Assembly (NCBI GenBank): GCA_018667995.1
Contig: JABIQT010000304.1
Span: forward strand, 1-7,025
DNA: 7,025 bases
Origin: Candidatus Latescibacterota bacterium
GTDB taxonomy: Bacteria; JAAXHH01; JABIQT01
Direction: 5' to 3'
Under the pieces are notes generated by a model. It did not search any database. It had not been told where the DNA came from and saw only the letters and a list, made by a program, of their open reading frames with translations. Numbering within the stretch: the first letter of the stretch is position 1; each line of letters starts with the position of its first letter. The position numbers and the translations under genes are program-made. Shown here piece by piece: positions 1 through 7,025 of this stretch.

Positions 1-820
1 TCGACTTGTCCTCTTCGACCAGCGTACAGACCCAGCAACCAAACCTGCTGTTTCCACAGCTCGGGGTCGTCTCATCGACAACGAGGGGGCAATCTCCATC
101 GGGAGATGCACCTTGATACATGCCGAGGAGATTCTTGTTGTCATTGCCCCATGGGTTCTTCTGCTGCATGAGGAATGTCCAGACGTCGTCATTCGACCAG
201 CTCTCGATCGGGGAGTAGACGAGGCAGTTCGGCAGGCGGGCATTAGGGCTCAGCCGGTCCCGGATCCGATGCCTTTCGAGATTTGTCATAACCGCCGAGC
301 GTTTGGAGCTCTCAGCTTTGCGTGTGCCGAGGACAAGAATGGCCTCGCCATTGGTCCGAACGACGTCCATGATGAACGTATTTGAGGGCGAGATCTTCAG
401 CCTGTCAGTGCACCACCGAAAGCGTCTACGTGGAGCTGGATACCCCTTGCCGATCAAGTTCACCCAGAATGTGTCTTTCACGGCAGGAGTGAGTCGGTGG
501 GGCTGGATGGGTAAGTCGTCCTCTTCACTTGCAGCACGCATCAGTTCCAGCGAATTCGAGACCCAGAGCGCAACAATCGGGTTCTCGACCAAGGTGTCTG
601 TACTGATGACGTGAACCGTCTTCTTTCGCTGGCTCTTCTCCAATCCTGCAAGTGCTTGCCAGACGAGTTGGAGCACCGCGGTCGAGTCCTTGCCGCCGCT
701 GTAGCCTACCACCCAAGGGACCTCATCCTCCAGGTAGAGGGAACGGATCTCGGCAATAAGGACGTCGACGGTGCCTCGTAAGCCGAGTTCTTCGAAGGCG
801 CTGTACTGTTCACCGGTCAC
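1..820 (-). CDS. dndC: DndC, phosphorothioation sulfurtransferase of the PAPS-reductase/ATP-pyrophosphatase fold (partial, C-terminus beyond left edge)
   Basis: DndC is an iron-sulfur protein with ATP pyrophosphatase activity that takes part in putting sulfur into the DNA backbone. Reading leftward from a GTG at 820, 273 codons are open up to the window edge. The PP-loop SGGKDST lies at residues 41-47, preceded by PWVVGY. RFRWCTDRLK (residues 133-142) and the family hallmark SCGNSRFGCWVCT (254-266) follow. C137, C255, C262 and C265 are candidates for the [4Fe-4S] ligands known in this family. The GTG overlaps the dndB stop as GTGA, and AGGAG (828-832, complement) sits 7 nt upstream, so the start is well supported and translation is probably coupled to dndB. 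The missing part is the C-terminus. dndD and dndE would be expected further left, but this cannot be seen. Confidence 0.96.
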   Translation of the reverse strand, partial: MTGEQYSAFEELGLRGTVDVLIAEIRSLYLEDEVPWVVGYSGGKDSTAVLQLVWQALAGLEKSQRKKTVHVISTDTLVENPIVALWVSNSLELMRAASEEDDLPIQPHRLTPAVKDTFWVNLIGKGYPAPRRRFRWCTDRLKISPSNTFIMDVVRTNGEAILVLGTRKAESSKRSAVMTNLERHRIRDRLSPNARLPNCLVYSPIESWSNDDVWTFLMQQKNPWGNDNKNLLGMYQGASPDGDCPLVVDETTPSCGNSRFGCWVCTLVEEDKS

Positions 821-1911
821 TTATTGTCTCCTCGCTGGAACGCGTCTTCGACGCGTTGTTCCTCAGATGTCAGAGCGATGCCCAGTCGCTGTTTGATCAG
901 ATTCGCAGTCAGAATGACGTTGTGTGTGGACTTAGACACGCGGCCCCCGATAAGGGCCCGACCTTCCCACGTTGGTGCGTTTGCCCGCGACCAATCGATC
1001 GTCCCGAGATCTGCCAAGCTTTTTTCGAAGTCAGTGATGCCTGCAGAGAGCAAGGTGTTGCCCGCCTTCCCGAGCGCGTGCAGAGCGATACCGTGAGAAT
1101 GGATAAAATCCCGCCTCACCTCCCCGGCGGTGAGTTTTGAATCACGTACGAGATTCCATTCCAGCATTTGCTCTGCAACGGCTTCCCAGTAGCCTTGGGC
1201 TAAATCACACAGTGCGTTATCATCATCGGCCTCGACGTCTCGTAGAAGGGCGCCCGTTGCTGTGTGTACCGCGCTCAGCGTGAAGAGCTTTCTCGATCTT
1301 TGTGCCAGCGACGACTTCTCCATTTCAACGAAGTCACGGAAGATCGGGGAGCTTAACACCATCGACTTCGTGAGTTGTGCTCTCGAGTCTCGATGTTCAT
1401 ATAGCAAACCAAGTGAGGCCGACGGGCGGATGGCATGGCGGTTCAGGTCCGCGAACATCTGCTGGCAGCGTTCAAGACCCTTGTCCATATAGAGCACGAC
1501 GGAAATAGTCTCGTTGGCTATGTCCGGATTCTCCTGCAACGCGAGCTCGATCGCAGCCCGACGATGCTGCCCATCGTTGATTATGAATCGGGCGTTGAAG
1601 TCGATATGTAGGGTACCCAACGAGAAGCCCGGTCCCTCGGCGCCTTGGGGATCGAATTTCAGATCTCCATCGACTGATGCTGTGAGAGCGGAGAAGACGT
1701 AGCTATCTGGATTTTCGAGGATGTAGTTACGTAGCTCAGGCAAGCGACTCTTGTTCAAGATCCTCTGAGCACGTAGTTCGGGTTTCAGTTCCTCTTCGTC
1801 GTACTGGAACATCTTGGGTAGGAACCTCAGAGGGCACATCACGACATAGTATTCACGTCGAGCCTGGATTCCCCTGATGCAGGGGAATGACGATCCGAAA
1901 GAAGAATTCAT
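817..1911 (-). CDS. dndB: DndB, DGQHR-domain regulator of DNA phosphorothioation
   Basis: DndB is not needed for modification itself; in studied systems it represses dnd transcription and alters modification level. The 364-residue protein carries DGQHRRAAIELAL (residues 113-125), the motif that names the DGQHR family, and MFADLNRHAIRPSAS further on, both typical of DndB. The N-terminal FPCIRGIQARREYYVVMCP also fits the family. I chose the ATG at 1911 because AGGG lies 7 nt upstream and the conserved N-terminus begins just after it. An ATG at 1917 and a TTG at 1959 are in-frame alternatives; the TTG would add 16 residues of unfamiliar sequence. It is first gene of the minus-strand operon and overlaps dndC by 4 bp. 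Its promoter region holds the TGACAAACAAT repeats, so autoregulation is plausible but unproven. Confidence 0.95.
   Translation of the reverse strand: MNSSFGSSFPCIRGIQARREYYVVMCPLRFLPKMFQYDEEELKPELRAQRILNKSRLPELRNYILENPDSYVFSALTASVDGDLKFDPQGAEGPGFSLGTLHIDFNARFIINDGQHRRAAIELALQENPDIANETISVVLYMDKGLERCQQMFADLNRHAIRPSASLGLLYEHRDSRAQLTKSMVLSSPIFRDFVEMEKSSLAQRSRKLFTLSAVHTATGALLRDVEADDDNALCDLAQGYWEAVAEQMLEWNLVRDSKLTAGEVRRDFIHSHGIALHALGKAGNTLLSAGITDFEKSLADLGTIDWSRANAPTWEGRALIGGRVSKSTHNVILTANLIKQRLGIALTSEEQRVEDAFQRGDNK
818..832 (-). promoter_or_regulatory. Ribosome binding site and GTGA stop/start overlap joining dndB to dndC
   Basis: On the minus strand AGGAG (828-832) is followed after 7 nt by GTG (820-818), which shares bases with the dndB TGA stop (819-817). 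This fixes the dndC start, which is not ATG, and indicates translational coupling of the two genes. The next GTG, at 813-811, is out of frame. Confidence 0.8.
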
Positions 1912-2027
1912 CTGCATGCCCTGGGATATGCGTTGAGCTGCAACTGCTAAGCGAAACAAAGCCGTGTCAGGCTAAGTGCTACACCCTATTTCACAAACAA
2001 ACTGGTGGGAAATCACGTGCCACAAGA

Positions 2028-2055
2028 TTTGTATGTCAACGATATGACAAACATA
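2028..2055. repeat. Inverted pair of TGACAAACAAT-like elements (operator candidate, dndB side)
   Basis: TTTGTATGTCA (2028-2038) and TGACAAACATA (2045-2055) are diverging copies of the element, facing away from each other across a 6-bp centre. Over the 10-bp core each differs from TGACAAACAA at one position. The right copy overlaps the proposed dndB -10 hexamer at 2050-2055, so a bound protein would block dndB transcription. A further single copy, TCACAAACAA at 1991-2000 (one mismatch), lies towards dndB. The binding protein is unknown; DndB is the obvious candidate. Confidence 0.6.
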
Positions 2056-2079
2056 CTTTTCTCTTGGAAACCTTGTCAA
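2050..2079 (-). promoter_or_regulatory. Putative dndB promoter
   Basis: On the minus strand a perfect TTGACA (2079-2074) and TATGTT (2055-2050) are 18 bp apart. The transcript would start near 2043 and have a leader of about 130 nt before the dndB ATG. The -10 hexamer lies over a TGACAAACA copy, and the promoter overlaps the proposed dndA promoter on the other strand. This is a pattern match only. Confidence 0.45.
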
Positions 2080-2092
2080 GGGTGTCTATTGT
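2064..2092 (+). promoter_or_regulatory. Putative dndA promoter
   Basis: TTGGAA (2064-2069) and TATTGT (2087-2092) are separated by 17 bp, each hexamer matching the sigma-70 consensus at four positions. The predicted transcript would start near 2099, about 50 nt before the dndA GTG. The -10 hexamer overlaps one TGACAAACAAT copy. This is a pattern match only. Confidence 0.45.
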
Positions 2093-2125
2093 TTGTCATC
2101 ACATCCACAGATTTTGACAAACAAT
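2088..2125. repeat. Perfect 11-bp inverted repeat ATTGTTTGTCA / TGACAAACAAT (operator candidate, dndA side)
   Basis: ATTGTTTGTCA (2088-2098) and its exact reverse complement TGACAAACAAT (2115-2125) flank a 16-bp spacer. An 11-bp perfect match at this distance is very unlikely by chance. The left half overlaps the proposed dndA -10 hexamer (2087-2092), and the right half lies just before the dndA ribosome binding site. It shares its core with the elements at 2028-2055, which argues for one DNA-binding protein acting on both promoters. Confidence 0.7.
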
Positions 2126-2148: not shown

Positions 2149-3279
2149 GTGCCAGTATATCTAGATTGTAACGCAACTTCCCCGATGGAAGATGCTGTTT
2201 TAGAAGAAGTTATGAATTATATGCGTGTGGAATATGGAAATTCAGGTAGTAGAACTCATAGCTATGGGTTGGACGCGAAACGCGCTGTAGAGAGTGCCAG
2301 GGCGAAGGTCGCTAGCGTTGTCGATGCTGAAGTGAACGAGGTTTTCTTCACTAGCGGGGCAACAGAAAGCAACAATTTGGCCATCCTCGGACTTCGCGAA
2401 CACGCAGAGTCTGTCGGTCGCAAGCACATCGTCAGCACGGCGCTCGAGCACAAGGCGGTACTTGAGCCACTGGAAGTTCTTGAAAGGCGGGGGTACGAGG
2501 TGTCGTTAGTCAGGCCGAATAGCGGTGGATGGGTTGAGCCTGAAGCCATCCGAGCGGTTGTAAGGGACGACACCGTGTTGGTTTCGCTGATGCACGTGAA
2601 CAACGAGACAGGCATCGTGCAATGTCTGCCCGAGTTAACAGAGCTGTTACAAAACCATCCCACGTATCTGCACGTCGACGGAGCTCAGGGGTTTGGTAAG
2701 GACCTCGATGGGTTGAGGGATCCGCGAATCGACCTGATCAGCGTGAGTGGCCACAAGATCTATGGGCCCAAGGGCATCGGTGCTCTGATCGCGCGACGAC
2801 GGGGATATGAAAAGCCACCGCTGACGCCCCTGGTCTTCGGTGGTGGTCAGGAACGCGGCCTCCGACCTGGAACATTACCAGTGGCATTGATCGCAGGATT
2901 GGGCGTTGCCGCTGAACTTGCGGCTCTTCATGCAGCGGAACGAGAGAAGCAATGCACAGAGTTCAGGAGGACGATGCTTGCGGCGATCGAGCCCCTTGAG
3001 CCCGTGTTCCATGGCGATCAAGCGCGCGTCCTACCGCACGTCGTGAATCTGTCGTTTCCAGGCTTGGATTCGGAGGCGCTTATGGTGGCCCTAAAGGATC
3101 ATGTGGCCGTCTCCAATGGATCAGCATGTACCTCATCCAGCTACGAACCGAGCCACGTGCTCAAGTCAATGGGACTGAGCGACGACGAGATCCAAGGTGC
3201 CCTACGATTCTCATGGTGTCACATGACGGCAGACGTGGCTTGGGATGGGGTCGTGGGCGCTATCAAACGGCTGATGTGA
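2149..3279 (+). CDS. dndA: DndA, cysteine desulfurase for DNA phosphorothioation
   Basis: DndA is a PLP-dependent, NifS/IscS-like cysteine desulfurase that releases sulfur from L-cysteine as a protein persulfide and feeds DndC. The 376 residues match the family length. MPVYLDCNAT opens the protein as in other DndA/NifS proteins. TSGATESNN contributes to PLP phosphate binding, HVDGAQ holds the PLP-contacting Asp, and SGHKIYGPKG places the Schiff-base lysine at K203. SNGSACTSSSYEPSHVL puts the catalytic cysteine at C327, the position I recall for the S. lividans enzyme. The GTG start is preceded by AAGGA (2136-2140) at 8 nt; the ATG at 2142 is out of frame and soon stops. The first 120 nt or so are AT-rich compared with the rest. 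The stop overlaps the next gene's start. Confidence 0.96.
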   Translation: MPVYLDCNATSPMEDAVLEEVMNYMRVEYGNSGSRTHSYGLDAKRAVESARAKVASVVDAEVNEVFFTSGATESNNLAILGLREHAESVGRKHIVSTALEHKAVLEPLEVLERRGYEVSLVRPNSGGWVEPEAIRAVVRDDTVLVSLMHVNNETGIVQCLPELTELLQNHPTYLHVDGAQGFGKDLDGLRDPRIDLISVSGHKIYGPKGIGALIARRRGYEKPPLTPLVFGGGQERGLRPGTLPVALIAGLGVAAELAALHAAEREKQCTEFRRTMLAAIEPLEPVFHGDQARVLPHVVNLSFPGLDSEALMVALKDHVAVSNGSACTSSSYEPSHVLKSMGLSDDEIQGALRFSWCHMTADVAWDGVVGAIKRLM

Positions 3280-4529
3280 CCTTGCCCGTTCGCTCTGCTA
3301 GACACCTCACGGCGATCGCCCGGCTTGAACCCTCGTTGCCGGTAAGGTCGACGATGGAAGATGGTCTTCTCCGACAAGGGAAATCCTTCTTCGACTACGG
3401 CTGCGGTAGAGGAGACGACGTGCGGTTCGTCGAAGCAGCGGGGATTGAGTCTCGGGGCTGGGATCCTGTGCACCGAAACGAATCGCAATTATTGAAGGCC
3501 GATGTCGTCAATCTGGGCTATGTGACAAATGTGATCGAGGATAGCGCAGAGCGGGGCCAGACTCTGCGAAGCGCATGGGGATTGGCCAACGAACTGCTCG
3601 TTGTTGCTGCGCGCCTTGATGGCCCATCGTCGGGTTCTGAGGAAGATGGATCATATACCAGCAAAGGGACGTTCCAAAAGTACTTCACTCAAGAAGAGCT
3701 CAGAGGTTGGATCGAAGCGGAGCTTCAGAAGAAGGTCGTGGCAGCCAGGCCCGGTGTGTTCTACGTCTTCCGAGACGACACAGAAGCACAACGCTTGATT
3801 GCTCGGCGAATGCGAGCGCGGGTTGAGCGGCCAACAGTGCGCCAAGCAGACGCACTGTACGAAGAGAATCGCGGGGCGCTCGAGTGTTTGGAGGCATTCT
3901 ACCTGGAGAGAGGACGGTTACCGCGCGGTCCAGAAACACTCGAGCACGAAGGACTCGCGGGCCGATTTGGTACCCTTCGCCAAGCGTGGTGGGTTGTTCG
4001 GAAAGCCACAGGCGAAGAGGCGTGGGAACGCGTGCGAAAAGTGCGCATGCAGGATCTACTCGTGCAGATAGCTCTTTCTTCTTTCGGCGAACGGCCACGA
4101 TTTGGTCAACTGCCCAGCGAGATGCAGAGTGATGTTCGAGACCATCTCAGCTCGTATAAACGCGCCTGCGCGTTTGCTGACAAGCTACTGCAGCTGACGG
4201 GAAAACCCTCTGCGCTCGAGTACGCGATACTGCATTCAGAGGTAGGTCAATTGGCAGACGGCGGGTTGGTGGTGCCCATCCAAGAGGTCGGTGATCTGCC
4301 TCCACTTCTGAGGACCTACGAGGGGTGCGGGCGAGTGCTCGCTGGTGAACCGTTCGACGTGACCCACGTTAGTCTTGGTGTGGAAGGTTTCTTTGTCGCC
4401 TACCAAGTCCACCACGCCTCGAATACGAGCCACGGTGGGACGAAAGGGGTGGTGCTGGCCGACCTTGGTCGGAGGACAGTCGAGTTCGTTCGCAAACAAT
4501 CAGAGCGAGACTTGCATCATGGCGAATGA
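3276..4529 (+). CDS. DNA phosphorothioation-associated putative methyltransferase
   Basis: This 417-residue protein resembles the phosphorothioation-associated putative methyltransferase family (TIGR04096, from memory), whose members sit in dnd clusters and have no settled substrate. Family-like features in order are HLTAIARLEPSLPVR (residues 10-24), a Rossmann-type SAM-binding motif FFDYGCGRGDD (38-48), GWDPVH (61-66) and the conserved VNLGYVTNVIED (78-89). A C-terminal module includes DLPPLLRTYEGCGRVLAGE. No classical NPPY or PCQ DNA-methyltransferase catalytic motif was seen, so base methylation of DNA should not be assumed. The reading frame extends upstream to 3126 inside dndA, but homology begins near the GTG at 3276, which overlaps the dndA TGA as GTGA. 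There is no strong Shine-Dalgarno, so translation probably depends on coupling to dndA. Confidence 0.87.
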   Translation: MTLPVRSARHLTAIARLEPSLPVRSTMEDGLLRQGKSFFDYGCGRGDDVRFVEAAGIESRGWDPVHRNESQLLKADVVNLGYVTNVIEDSAERGQTLRSAWGLANELLVVAARLDGPSSGSEEDGSYTSKGTFQKYFTQEELRGWIEAELQKKVVAARPGVFYVFRDDTEAQRLIARRMRARVERPTVRQADALYEENRGALECLEAFYLERGRLPRGPETLEHEGLAGRFGTLRQAWWVVRKATGEEAWERVRKVRMQDLLVQIALSSFGERPRFGQLPSEMQSDVRDHLSSYKRACAFADKLLQLTGKPSALEYAILHSEVGQLADGGLVVPIQEVGDLPPLLRTYEGCGRVLAGEPFDVTHVSLGVEGFFVAYQVHHASNTSHGGTKGVVLADLGRRTVEFVRKQSERDLHHGE

Positions 4530-5110: not shown

Positions 5111-5710
5111 TCACCGACCGTAGGCCTTTTCTAGAGCAGCAGGGGTCTTCCACGGACCACGCACCCGAGGTTTGAGGGTCTTGTATTCGTCCTTCCCTAC
5201 CTGCTCGATAAAACGCAGCTCCCCCAATGCGTGATCCGCTGAGTAGCATTCGACGAGTTTTCTCGCGATCACCGCGTTCAGCTTGCTTCCCATGCCGAAG
5301 TGTTTCTGGCTGTGGGGGCCGAGCTTCATGGCAAGACCCATGAGTAGGTCGTCTCGAGTGAAGCTGGTCTTCTTAGGTAAGAACTCATTCAAGAAGAAAT
5401 GCCACGACTCGACCTTAACGGGATCAGTCGTCAACTCGTGATGCAAAAACCACATCGTTGTGGGGGTCTCTAATTTGGGGTCTTTCGAAACGATGACTTC
5501 GCCCATCTGGGTAAGCTGGAGCGGCAAGCGCTGCTCAATCAACCCCGAGTAATGGAGCCAGCTACGGTAGCGCGAACCGAACGGCCCACCGTAGCCAAAG
5601 AGGGCACCGAGCTCTTTGTCAGACGGTTTACCTTTCTTGCGAAGCAGTGCAAGTACGCCCGACATGTACTCTCGATTCAGGCCAAAGTTACCGTGGAAGT
5701 AGACGGTCAT
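5111..5710 (-). CDS. Compact DUF4007-family protein, phosphorothioation-associated
   Basis: The 199-residue product resembles DUF4007 proteins, which are of unknown biochemical role and recur beside dndC-like (PAPS-reductase-type) genes. The N-terminal FHGNFGLN (residues 5-12) matches the family's FHGTFPLR-like opening. A helix-turn-helix-like stretch ending in RSWLHYSGLIE follows (49-59). LTQMGEVIVSKDP (66-78), TTMWFLHHEL (84-93) and WHFFLNEF (103-110) correspond to the conserved LTPxG, TLWLLHxxL and Trp/Phe/Asn segments. The C-terminus, PWKTPAALEKAYG, looks complete although the protein is shorter than the roughly 300 residues I recall for many members. The ATG at 5710 has GGAG (5717-5720, complement) 6 nt upstream. 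It lies opposite in direction to the Cys-rich gene on one side and to the patatin gene on the other. A DNA-binding or modification-sensing role is possible. Confidence 0.75.
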   Translation of the reverse strand: MTVYFHGNFGLNREYMSGVLALLRKKGKPSDKELGALFGYGGPFGSRYRSWLHYSGLIEQRLPLQLTQMGEVIVSKDPKLETPTTMWFLHHELTTDPVKVESWHFFLNEFLPKKTSFTRDDLLMGLAMKLGPHSQKHFGMGSKLNAVIARKLVECYSADHALGELRFIEQVGKDEYKTLKPRVRGPWKTPAALEKAYGR

Positions 5711-5901: not shown

Positions 5902-5905
5902 ATGA
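5858..5905 (+). CDS. Possible 15-residue leader peptide upstream of the patatin gene
   Basis: An ATG at 5858 opens a 15-codon frame encoding MLNHWWLFSLREGIV, whose TGA stop (5903-5905) overlaps the patatin ATG (5902-5904) as ATGA. AAGG (5848-5851) lies 6 nt before the ATG, a sound ribosome site. Such a short frame can arise by chance, but the ribosome site and the exact stop/start overlap together suggest translational coupling. The tandem tryptophans could make it sensitive to charged tRNA-Trp, although no attenuator hairpin or terminator was seen. Function is unknown. Confidence 0.3.
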   Translation: MLNHWWLFSLREGIV

Positions 5906-7025
5906 CTGAGACGCAACTTGACTGCGTTGTCCTAAGCGGCGGGGGCGCGACGGGTGCCTTCGGCAGCGGAGCTGCACGTGCTATCCGCGACTTCCACAGG
6001 GACATTGTCGGCCACGAACGGCAGACGTGCTACATCGGCACGTCAGCTGGTGCCCTGAACGCTGCAGTGTTGGCCGCCTTTTCTGAGGATGGTGCGGAAC
6101 GCCTACGTCAGCTGTGGACAAACGCCAACGCGAAGTCTGTAGTCGGCGAATCCTTGGGTCGAAAAAAGGACACCCGACGTATCATGCGCAGGCTTCTGTG
6201 GCGCGCTTTTCTGGGTAAGGAACCGTTCTATCTGTTTGATACCAAAGCCTTGCGACAGCTTGTATCAGAAGCCCTGAAGGATGTGGATTTCGGCTCGCTC
6301 GATGAGGCACCGCTGGTACTGGTTGCCACGTGCTTTGACGACGGCCGCATTAGGAGCTTCTACACGTCTAGTCTGATCGACGAGGTTGTTCGGAAGGATC
6401 GAGAGGCAGCAGATCGCGAAGGCGTGCGTCAGAAGCTCAGTCGTTTCAAGAGAATCGATAGCAAAGAAATGCTGATTGAATGTCTCCTGGCGTCAGCTGC
6501 CATCCCGGTCCTCTTCCCACTTGTGGAAATTAACGGCAACTGGTACGGTGATGGCGGGATCGCAAACAACACGCCCGTCCAGGAGGCCGCGCTGCTCTTA
6601 CGTGTGGTCAAGGAGTGCTCTATCACCCATCTGCCAGGTGACACGTTCTGCATCATGCAGAATCCCAATAGCCGCTCCATGGAGCTTGAAGAACGCGGGC
6701 TCAAGGAGGTCGCGCTCTCAACCTATGAACTCGCCCAAACTCTTCATATGGGACCGATACTCGCCTCGTGGCACCAGATCAACAAATCAGTGCAGGATTA
6801 CTCCGAGGCTGTCGCGAAGCTGGAGGAGGCAGGGCATATAGCTGCAGACGGTAAGGATAGACTACTGCCGGCACCCGGCGGATACGTTCCTCGGCTGTCA
6901 CTTCCGCTCTACGAGATCCGGCCGACTGGCGAACTCGGTGGACTACTGGACTTCAGGAGCGCTGACTACGACCTGGAGGGATACGCAGCAGCTGTGGATG
7001 CCCTCCATCAGGCTCGTTTGGTAGA
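5902..7025 (+). CDS. Patatin-like phospholipase (partial, C-terminus beyond right edge)
   Basis: Patatin-like enzymes are Ser-Asp dyad acyl hydrolases that cleave membrane phospholipids or related esters. The visible 374 residues contain all three signatures: the oxyanion-hole glycine loop SGGGATGAFGSG (residues 12-23), the nucleophile elbow GTSAG with S48, and the catalytic Asp in DGG (D217-G219, within NWYGDGGIANNTPV). ASAAIPVLFP just before the Asp is also typical. No signal peptide or membrane segment is apparent at the N-terminus, so the enzyme starts in the cytoplasm. The ATG has GAGGGAAGG (5887-5895) upstream, with AAGG at 6 nt. Patatin lipases act as membrane-damaging effectors in some defence systems (for example CapV in CBASS), but no nucleotide cyclase is in the window. 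An ordinary lipase role, or an unrelated neighbour, remains possible. Confidence 0.93.
   Translation, partial: MTETQLDCVVLSGGGATGAFGSGAARAIRDFHRDIVGHERQTCYIGTSAGALNAAVLAAFSEDGAERLRQLWTNANAKSVVGESLGRKKDTRRIMRRLLWRAFLGKEPFYLFDTKALRQLVSEALKDVDFGSLDEAPLVLVATCFDDGRIRSFYTSSLIDEVVRKDREAADREGVRQKLSRFKRIDSKEMLIECLLASAAIPVLFPLVEINGNWYGDGGIANNTPVQEAALLLRVVKECSITHLPGDTFCIMQNPNSRSMELEERGLKEVALSTYELAQTLHMGPILASWHQINKSVQDYSEAVAKLEEAGHIAADGKDRLLPAPGGYVPRLSLPLYEIRPTGELGGLLDFRSADYDLEGYAAAVDALHQARLV

Follow-up and report, generated by a model that had tools for sequence, protein, structure and literature searches.

The intergenic region between the divergent dndB and dndA genes carries an array of short half-sites that is unique in the source genome, is conserved together with dndB across phyla and falls into distinct spacing classes. 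Judged by its sequence, the array is an operator that is conserved before dndB in many phyla. It very probably governs both divergent units, dndA and dndBCDE: DndB dimers would bind two palindromes, O1 and O2, and repress both promoters. To our knowledge a DndB operator has been published for a single organism. The comparison made here points to a general operator rule for the dndA-linked dnd systems of many phyla, joined to the Salmonella site, and bears on the control of phosphorothioation levels and on why the modification is partial, a matter that the field has yet to settle.

The window, that is the whole 7,025 bp stretch of DNA that was analysed, is one entire contig with dndC and dndB on the minus strand and dndA and a methyltransferase gene on the plus strand (Table 1). 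The overlap of dndC and dndB by 4 bp places them in the same operon. The ATG at 1911 was chosen as the dndB start on the basis of homology at the first matched residues and an AGGG 7 nt upstream, the open frame itself reaching 1959. The real start of the methyltransferase gene is probably near 3280–3360. With the likely starts at ATG 1911 and GTG 2149, the dndB-dndA intergenic region is about 237 bp and contains all five half-sites. After the dnd genes are those for a DUF4007 protein (5111–5710, minus strand) and a patatin-like phospholipase (5902–7023, plus strand), the latter weakly similar to a CBASS lipase model. These two may be a further defence module, truncated by the contig end.

Table 1. 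Genes, candidate promoters and predicted operator elements of the window.
Feature	Position	Strand	Characteristics
dndC	2–820	-	TIGR03183; truncated by the contig end
dndB	817–1911	-	TIGR03233; DGQHR motif; Cys26 is the counterpart of Salmonella Cys29
Lone fifth half-site	1991–2000	-	TTGTTTGTGA in dndB orientation; inside the presumed dndB 5' leader
Operator O1 (predicted)	2029–2054	no strand	TTGTATGTCA-N6-TGACAAACAT; core TATG-N12-CAAA, standard spacing
Predicted dndB promoter	2050–2079	-	-35 TTGACA (2079–2074), 18 nt, -10 TATGTT (2055–2050); sigma-70-like
Possible dndA promoter	2064–2092	+	-35 TTGGAA (2064–2069), 17 nt, -10 TATTGT (2087–2092); weak
Operator O2 (predicted)	2088–2125	no strand	ATTGTTTGTCA-N16-TGACAAACAAT; perfect 11 bp arms, core spacing 22
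dndA, cysteine desulfurase	2149–3279	+	TIGR03235; GTG start; RBS AAGGA 2136–2140
Putative methyltransferase, DNA phosphorothioation-associated	3126–4529	+	TIGR04096; downstream of dndA

The original prediction described five copies of TGACAAACAA, and all five were recovered: two are exact, at 2089–2098 (minus) and 2115–2124 (plus), and three have one mismatch, at 1991–2000 (plus), 2029–2038 (minus) and 2045–2054 (plus). There is no sixth match with at most one mismatch across the 7025 bp window. The perfect 11 bp inverted repeat also described there is present, with arms at 2088–2098 and 2115–2125 that are 16 nt apart, as is the arrangement into two pairs with spacers of 6 and 16, the 6 nt value following from the coordinates. 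Within O1, an inner palindrome at 2030–2053 is of the form TGTATGTCA-N6-TGACAAACA. The half-sites of O2 score 12.2 bits each, and the lone half-site at 1991–2000 scores 9.8 bits on the half-site matrix. The layout of the array is nearly mirror-symmetric around position 2071. The pattern TGTNTGTCA-N4..24-TGACAAACA has only two matches in the 6.06 Mb assembly, both of them in the window, and the reversed control pattern has none in that assembly. Exact copies of TGACAAACAA number 10 in the whole genome, including the 2 in the array.

The candidate promoters overlap the two palindromes. A promoter search found one dndB promoter, against 0.3 expected in shuffled sequences, which is a consensus match only; its predicted -10 overlaps an arm of O1. 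The candidate for dndA was read from the sequence and, at 8 of 12 consensus bases, is under the threshold of the promoter search. Its -10 overlaps the proximal arm of O2.

We infer DndB as the binder of these sites, repression as the outcome and a step that depends on ATP. As the product of the operon under its control, DndB would bind as a dimer to palindromes of the half-site TGT(A/T)TGTCA. O1, with its spacer of 6, would cover the dndB promoter at its -10 and start region, and O2, with its spacer of 16, would cover the presumed -10 and the leader of dndA. When occupied, O1 and O2 would block RNA polymerase at both promoters, a negative feedback that may keep the sulfur-modification genes low. 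ATP at the DGQHR/ParB-like domain probably tunes the affinity, in line with what is reported for Salmonella DndB; ATP-modulated autoregulation of DndB is cited in PMC10853773. The lone half-site would be accessory. No relative of DndB was found by sequence among solved structures. The AlphaFold model of the window DndB, with a mean pLDDT of 84, has weak matches to the ParB-N/sulfiredoxin fold; there is no confident DNA-binding fold in this model and no claim is therefore made about DNA contacts.

Conservation of the element was assessed in 80 dndB loci obtained by a genome scan, most of them with a divergent dndA. With no motif assumed, the 80 dndB-upstream regions have an excess of inverted repeats at concentric gaps of 8, 10 and 12, and those with an arm of 6 and a gap of 10 are found in 42 of the 80 loci where 6 are expected. 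A symmetric motif search of 76 non-redundant dndB-upstream regions, from which the window was excluded, learned the motif TGTAYGTYA-N6-TRACRTACA, with a core of TNNG-N12-CNNA. On this window-free matrix O1, which has both the half-sites and the core spacing of 12, scores 26.6 bits. By our count, matches of at least 14 bits are present in 64 of the 80 other dndB loci. In 55 of the 76 loci, outward-facing half-sites are paired at core spacing 12 (shuffle mean 0.02), and over 698 kb of these loci there are 84 matches above 14 bits at dndB starts and 1 elsewhere. The palindrome is retained where dndA is not nearby, for example in L064–L066, L069 and L071. In most related loci the half-site core upstream of dndB is TACG, TATG or TTTG within one 24 bp geometry, with the alphaproteobacteria and the window having TATG/TTTG cores at core spacing 12. 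Among the neighbours of the source genome, whose genus has one genome and whose phylum has 16, a true dndB relative was not found. The comparison of related dnd loci that had been proposed as a check thus finds the element conserved, which supports it as a regulatory element of dnd loci.

O2 departs from the standard spacing, having a core spacing of 22 and a full-matrix score of 3.1 bits. This is 10 more than the core spacing of O1, which would leave the half-sites facing the same side of the helix but separated by one more turn. A core spacing of 22 is present in four other loci (L068, L076, L078 and L079; shuffle mean 0.04), and in eight loci (L068, L076–L082), as classified by hand, a wide site is the only one visible, at core spacings of 19–23. 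In L078 and L080 the wide site, which is near dndA, escaped the scan because an extra reading frame separates dndA from dndB, and was assigned by hand. L076 and L079 were likewise classed by hand, each with a wide site and a weak full-matrix score. O2 has the geometry of this class, with two good outward-facing half-sites at core spacing 22 upstream of dndB, and the half-sites are the same. Unlike the window, these loci have no site at core spacing 12. It is unusual for both core spacings, 12 and 22, to be found at one locus, as they are in the window. Neither spacer is arbitrary, 6 being the standard value and 16 lying close to the value of one DndB clade.

The DndB proteins of the eight wide-site loci form one clade with support of 100/100, which spans the Verrucomicrobiota, Thermodesulfobacteriota, Myxococcota and Pseudomonadota. 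Operator geometry therefore tracks DndB type across phyla. This is consistent with DndB as the reader of the sites, but the whole cassette travels together. Five of the seven conserved columns that are switched in the wide clade are within residues 11–35, including Cys26 (scan p 0.003), the switch being a single evolutionary event. Wide-clade DndBs carry W26, R32 and S35, compared with C26, P32 and F35 in the window DndB. L083 is an exception, having the residues of the wide clade but a site at core spacing 12, and because of this contradiction residues 26–35 are retained as a lead only to the determinant of spacing. The window DndB is not assigned to the wide clade: a better tree does not group it there and its residues are of the other kind. 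A quick tree had made it sister to the wide clade (SH-aLRT 80), a placement that was dropped because the better model leaves the window DndB unplaced.

In Salmonella enterica Cerro 87, the dndB promoter contains two TACG-N10-CGTA palindromes to which the DndB (DptB) homodimer binds, and dndCD transcripts rise about 15-fold when dndB is deleted (PMC4507180). A change at Cys29 of the Salmonella protein alters its affinity for the operator. The window resembles this system in having two palindromic sites, O1 and O2, with short TNNG...CNNA cores in the dndB promoter, and in having a regulator of the same family, homodimeric in Salmonella, in which the cysteine is kept. It differs in its core spacings of 12 and 22 rather than 10, in its half-site of TATG/TTTG followed by TCA rather than TACG, and in the sharing of the control region with a divergent dndA, Salmonella having no linked dndA. 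The earlier observation that TACG-N10-CGTA is absent from the intergenic region holds; the sole match with up to one mismatch is in coding sequence at 3142, the number expected by chance. The different operator type that had been proposed on this ground is not supported, however. The design is that of Salmonella with a core spacing of 12 and a relaxed half-site. The region upstream of E. coli dndB contains TTACGTAAAATATCACGTAA, which is TACG-N10-CGTA, and the Streptomyces loci have TACGTCA-N6-TGACGTA, which is TACG with a core spacing of 12. The element in the window is therefore a variant of the DndB site.

The Streptomyces loci (for example L008, L020 and L047) are like the window in their divergent dndA and dndB, their half-site arrays and a palindrome of core spacing 12 near each promoter. 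Their palindrome is TGTACGTCA-N6-TGACGTACA, with a CpG-containing TACG half-site, unlike that of the window. These palindromes probably include the R repeat of S. lividans, which is predicted to be the same operator.

Several observations count against repression by DndB. The Salmonella sites have a core spacing of 10 and TACG, against 12 and TATG/TTTG here; O2 is wide while the window DndB is of the standard-spacing kind; and the candidate dndA promoter is weak by its sequence. In addition, although DndB is also termed a negative regulator in S. lividans, the inverted repeat R near the dndB -10 acted there as a positive element, mutation of one of its arms, R2, nearly abolishing promoter activity, and a protein other than DndB was suggested to bind it (PMC6186775). 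By analogy, the sites in the window could be targets of a regulator of the host that is not part of the dnd cassette and might be an activator. This is very improbable given that the site is nearly confined to dndB starts in many phyla, and that a host-wide regulator would have more targets than the two pattern matches in this genome. The effect of mutating R2 is expected if this arm shares bases with the -10, as seems to be so for the operator in the Streptomyces loci, and can then be reinterpreted as loss of the promoter itself. Nor are the five copies a product of chance. It is true that short repeats in two copies occur often and that these half-sites are T-rich and A-rich, but the geometry conserved across phyla, the uniqueness in the genome and counts far above those in shuffles refute an origin as chance or low-complexity repeats, the probability of which is negligible.

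The RHH fold is common among autorepressors. DndE has been assigned an RHH domain (PMC10853773), and the sites could be operators of another dnd-encoded protein such as DndE, or of a complex of DndB with other Dnd proteins. Since the dnd genes travel together, conservation of the sites with the operon cannot separate DndB from DndC, DndD and DndE. We nevertheless consider this improbable, because among the dnd proteins binding to a promoter of this kind has been shown for DndB alone (PMC4507180), and because the wide-spacing clade differs from other DndBs at Cys26 and adjacent positions, close to where a change affects affinity in Salmonella. Five dndC-like loci without dndB (L135, L136, L138, L142 and L144) likewise have nothing above 6 bits, a control that is modest because their DndC proteins are distant. 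It is also unlikely, though to be taken seriously, that O1 is the sole functional operator and that O2 and the lone half-site do nothing by themselves, being decayed or accessory copies. The full-matrix scores of O1 and O2 and the likeness of the window DndB to the standard-spacing kind would fit such an arrangement, but O2 is the more perfect repeat, at 11 of 11, and its core spacing, within the range of 19–23, is that of the sole visible operator in the eight other loci.

Repression of both promoters by DndB at O1 and O2 remains the preferred reading, and a more tentative extension of it, possible but rather doubtful, is that DndB reads a modular operator. Half-sites would pair either at 6 bp or one helical turn wider, at 16 bp, and the presence of one of each here could give dndB and dndA different repression thresholds or allow the two sites to be bridged into one complex. 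The spacing preference might then be set by the N-terminal stretch in which the conserved cysteine lies. The two spacing classes are testable with one protein and short probes.

Additional dndC loci in three classes were scanned with the operator matrix; among them L153 duplicates L078, and the DndB of L146 is that of L054. In dndB-bearing loci of more than 50% identity, the scores are 27.1 bits for L139 and 14–15.4 bits for L132, L149 and L150. Matrix scores are lower in L146, L147, L148, L151 and L152, yet these have clear N12-centred palindromes of other letters, such as TTGTACGGATCGATCGGTCCGTACAA; in L131 the palindrome was not found. More distant DndBs have different palindromes upstream. 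In L134, where DndB is about 37% identical, the long palindrome ATACGCAAGTATATACTTGCGTAT is directly before dndB and is possibly a further operator class. L140 and L141, which are near the E. coli type, have a common palindrome ATGGAAGTTATT...AATAACTTCCAT (TGGAAGT...ACTTCCA) upstream of dndB, which suggests another DndB specificity. A sixth dndC-like locus without dndB, L143, has an 11-bit perfect palindrome, GTATATGTCTGATCTGACATATAC, at 8847–8872, far from the dndC match.

DGQHR/DndB-like proteins are present on hundreds of plasmids, with 977 records matched. Four stand-alone plasmid homologues of DndB (L084–L087) have no operator upstream and no dndC, dndD or dndE annotated alongside. The mycobacterial/nocardial DndB clade (L014, L036, L045, L052, L063 and L150–L152) has the half-site TGTACGGA or TGTTCGGA at core spacing 12. 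An additional half-site pair at core spacing 32 is present in ten loci, almost all of them from alphaproteobacteria. In the alphaproteobacterial L009, L012, L013, L025, L030, L033, L043, L050 and L058, a third half-site is two helical turns out (core spacing 32), beside the standard palindrome.
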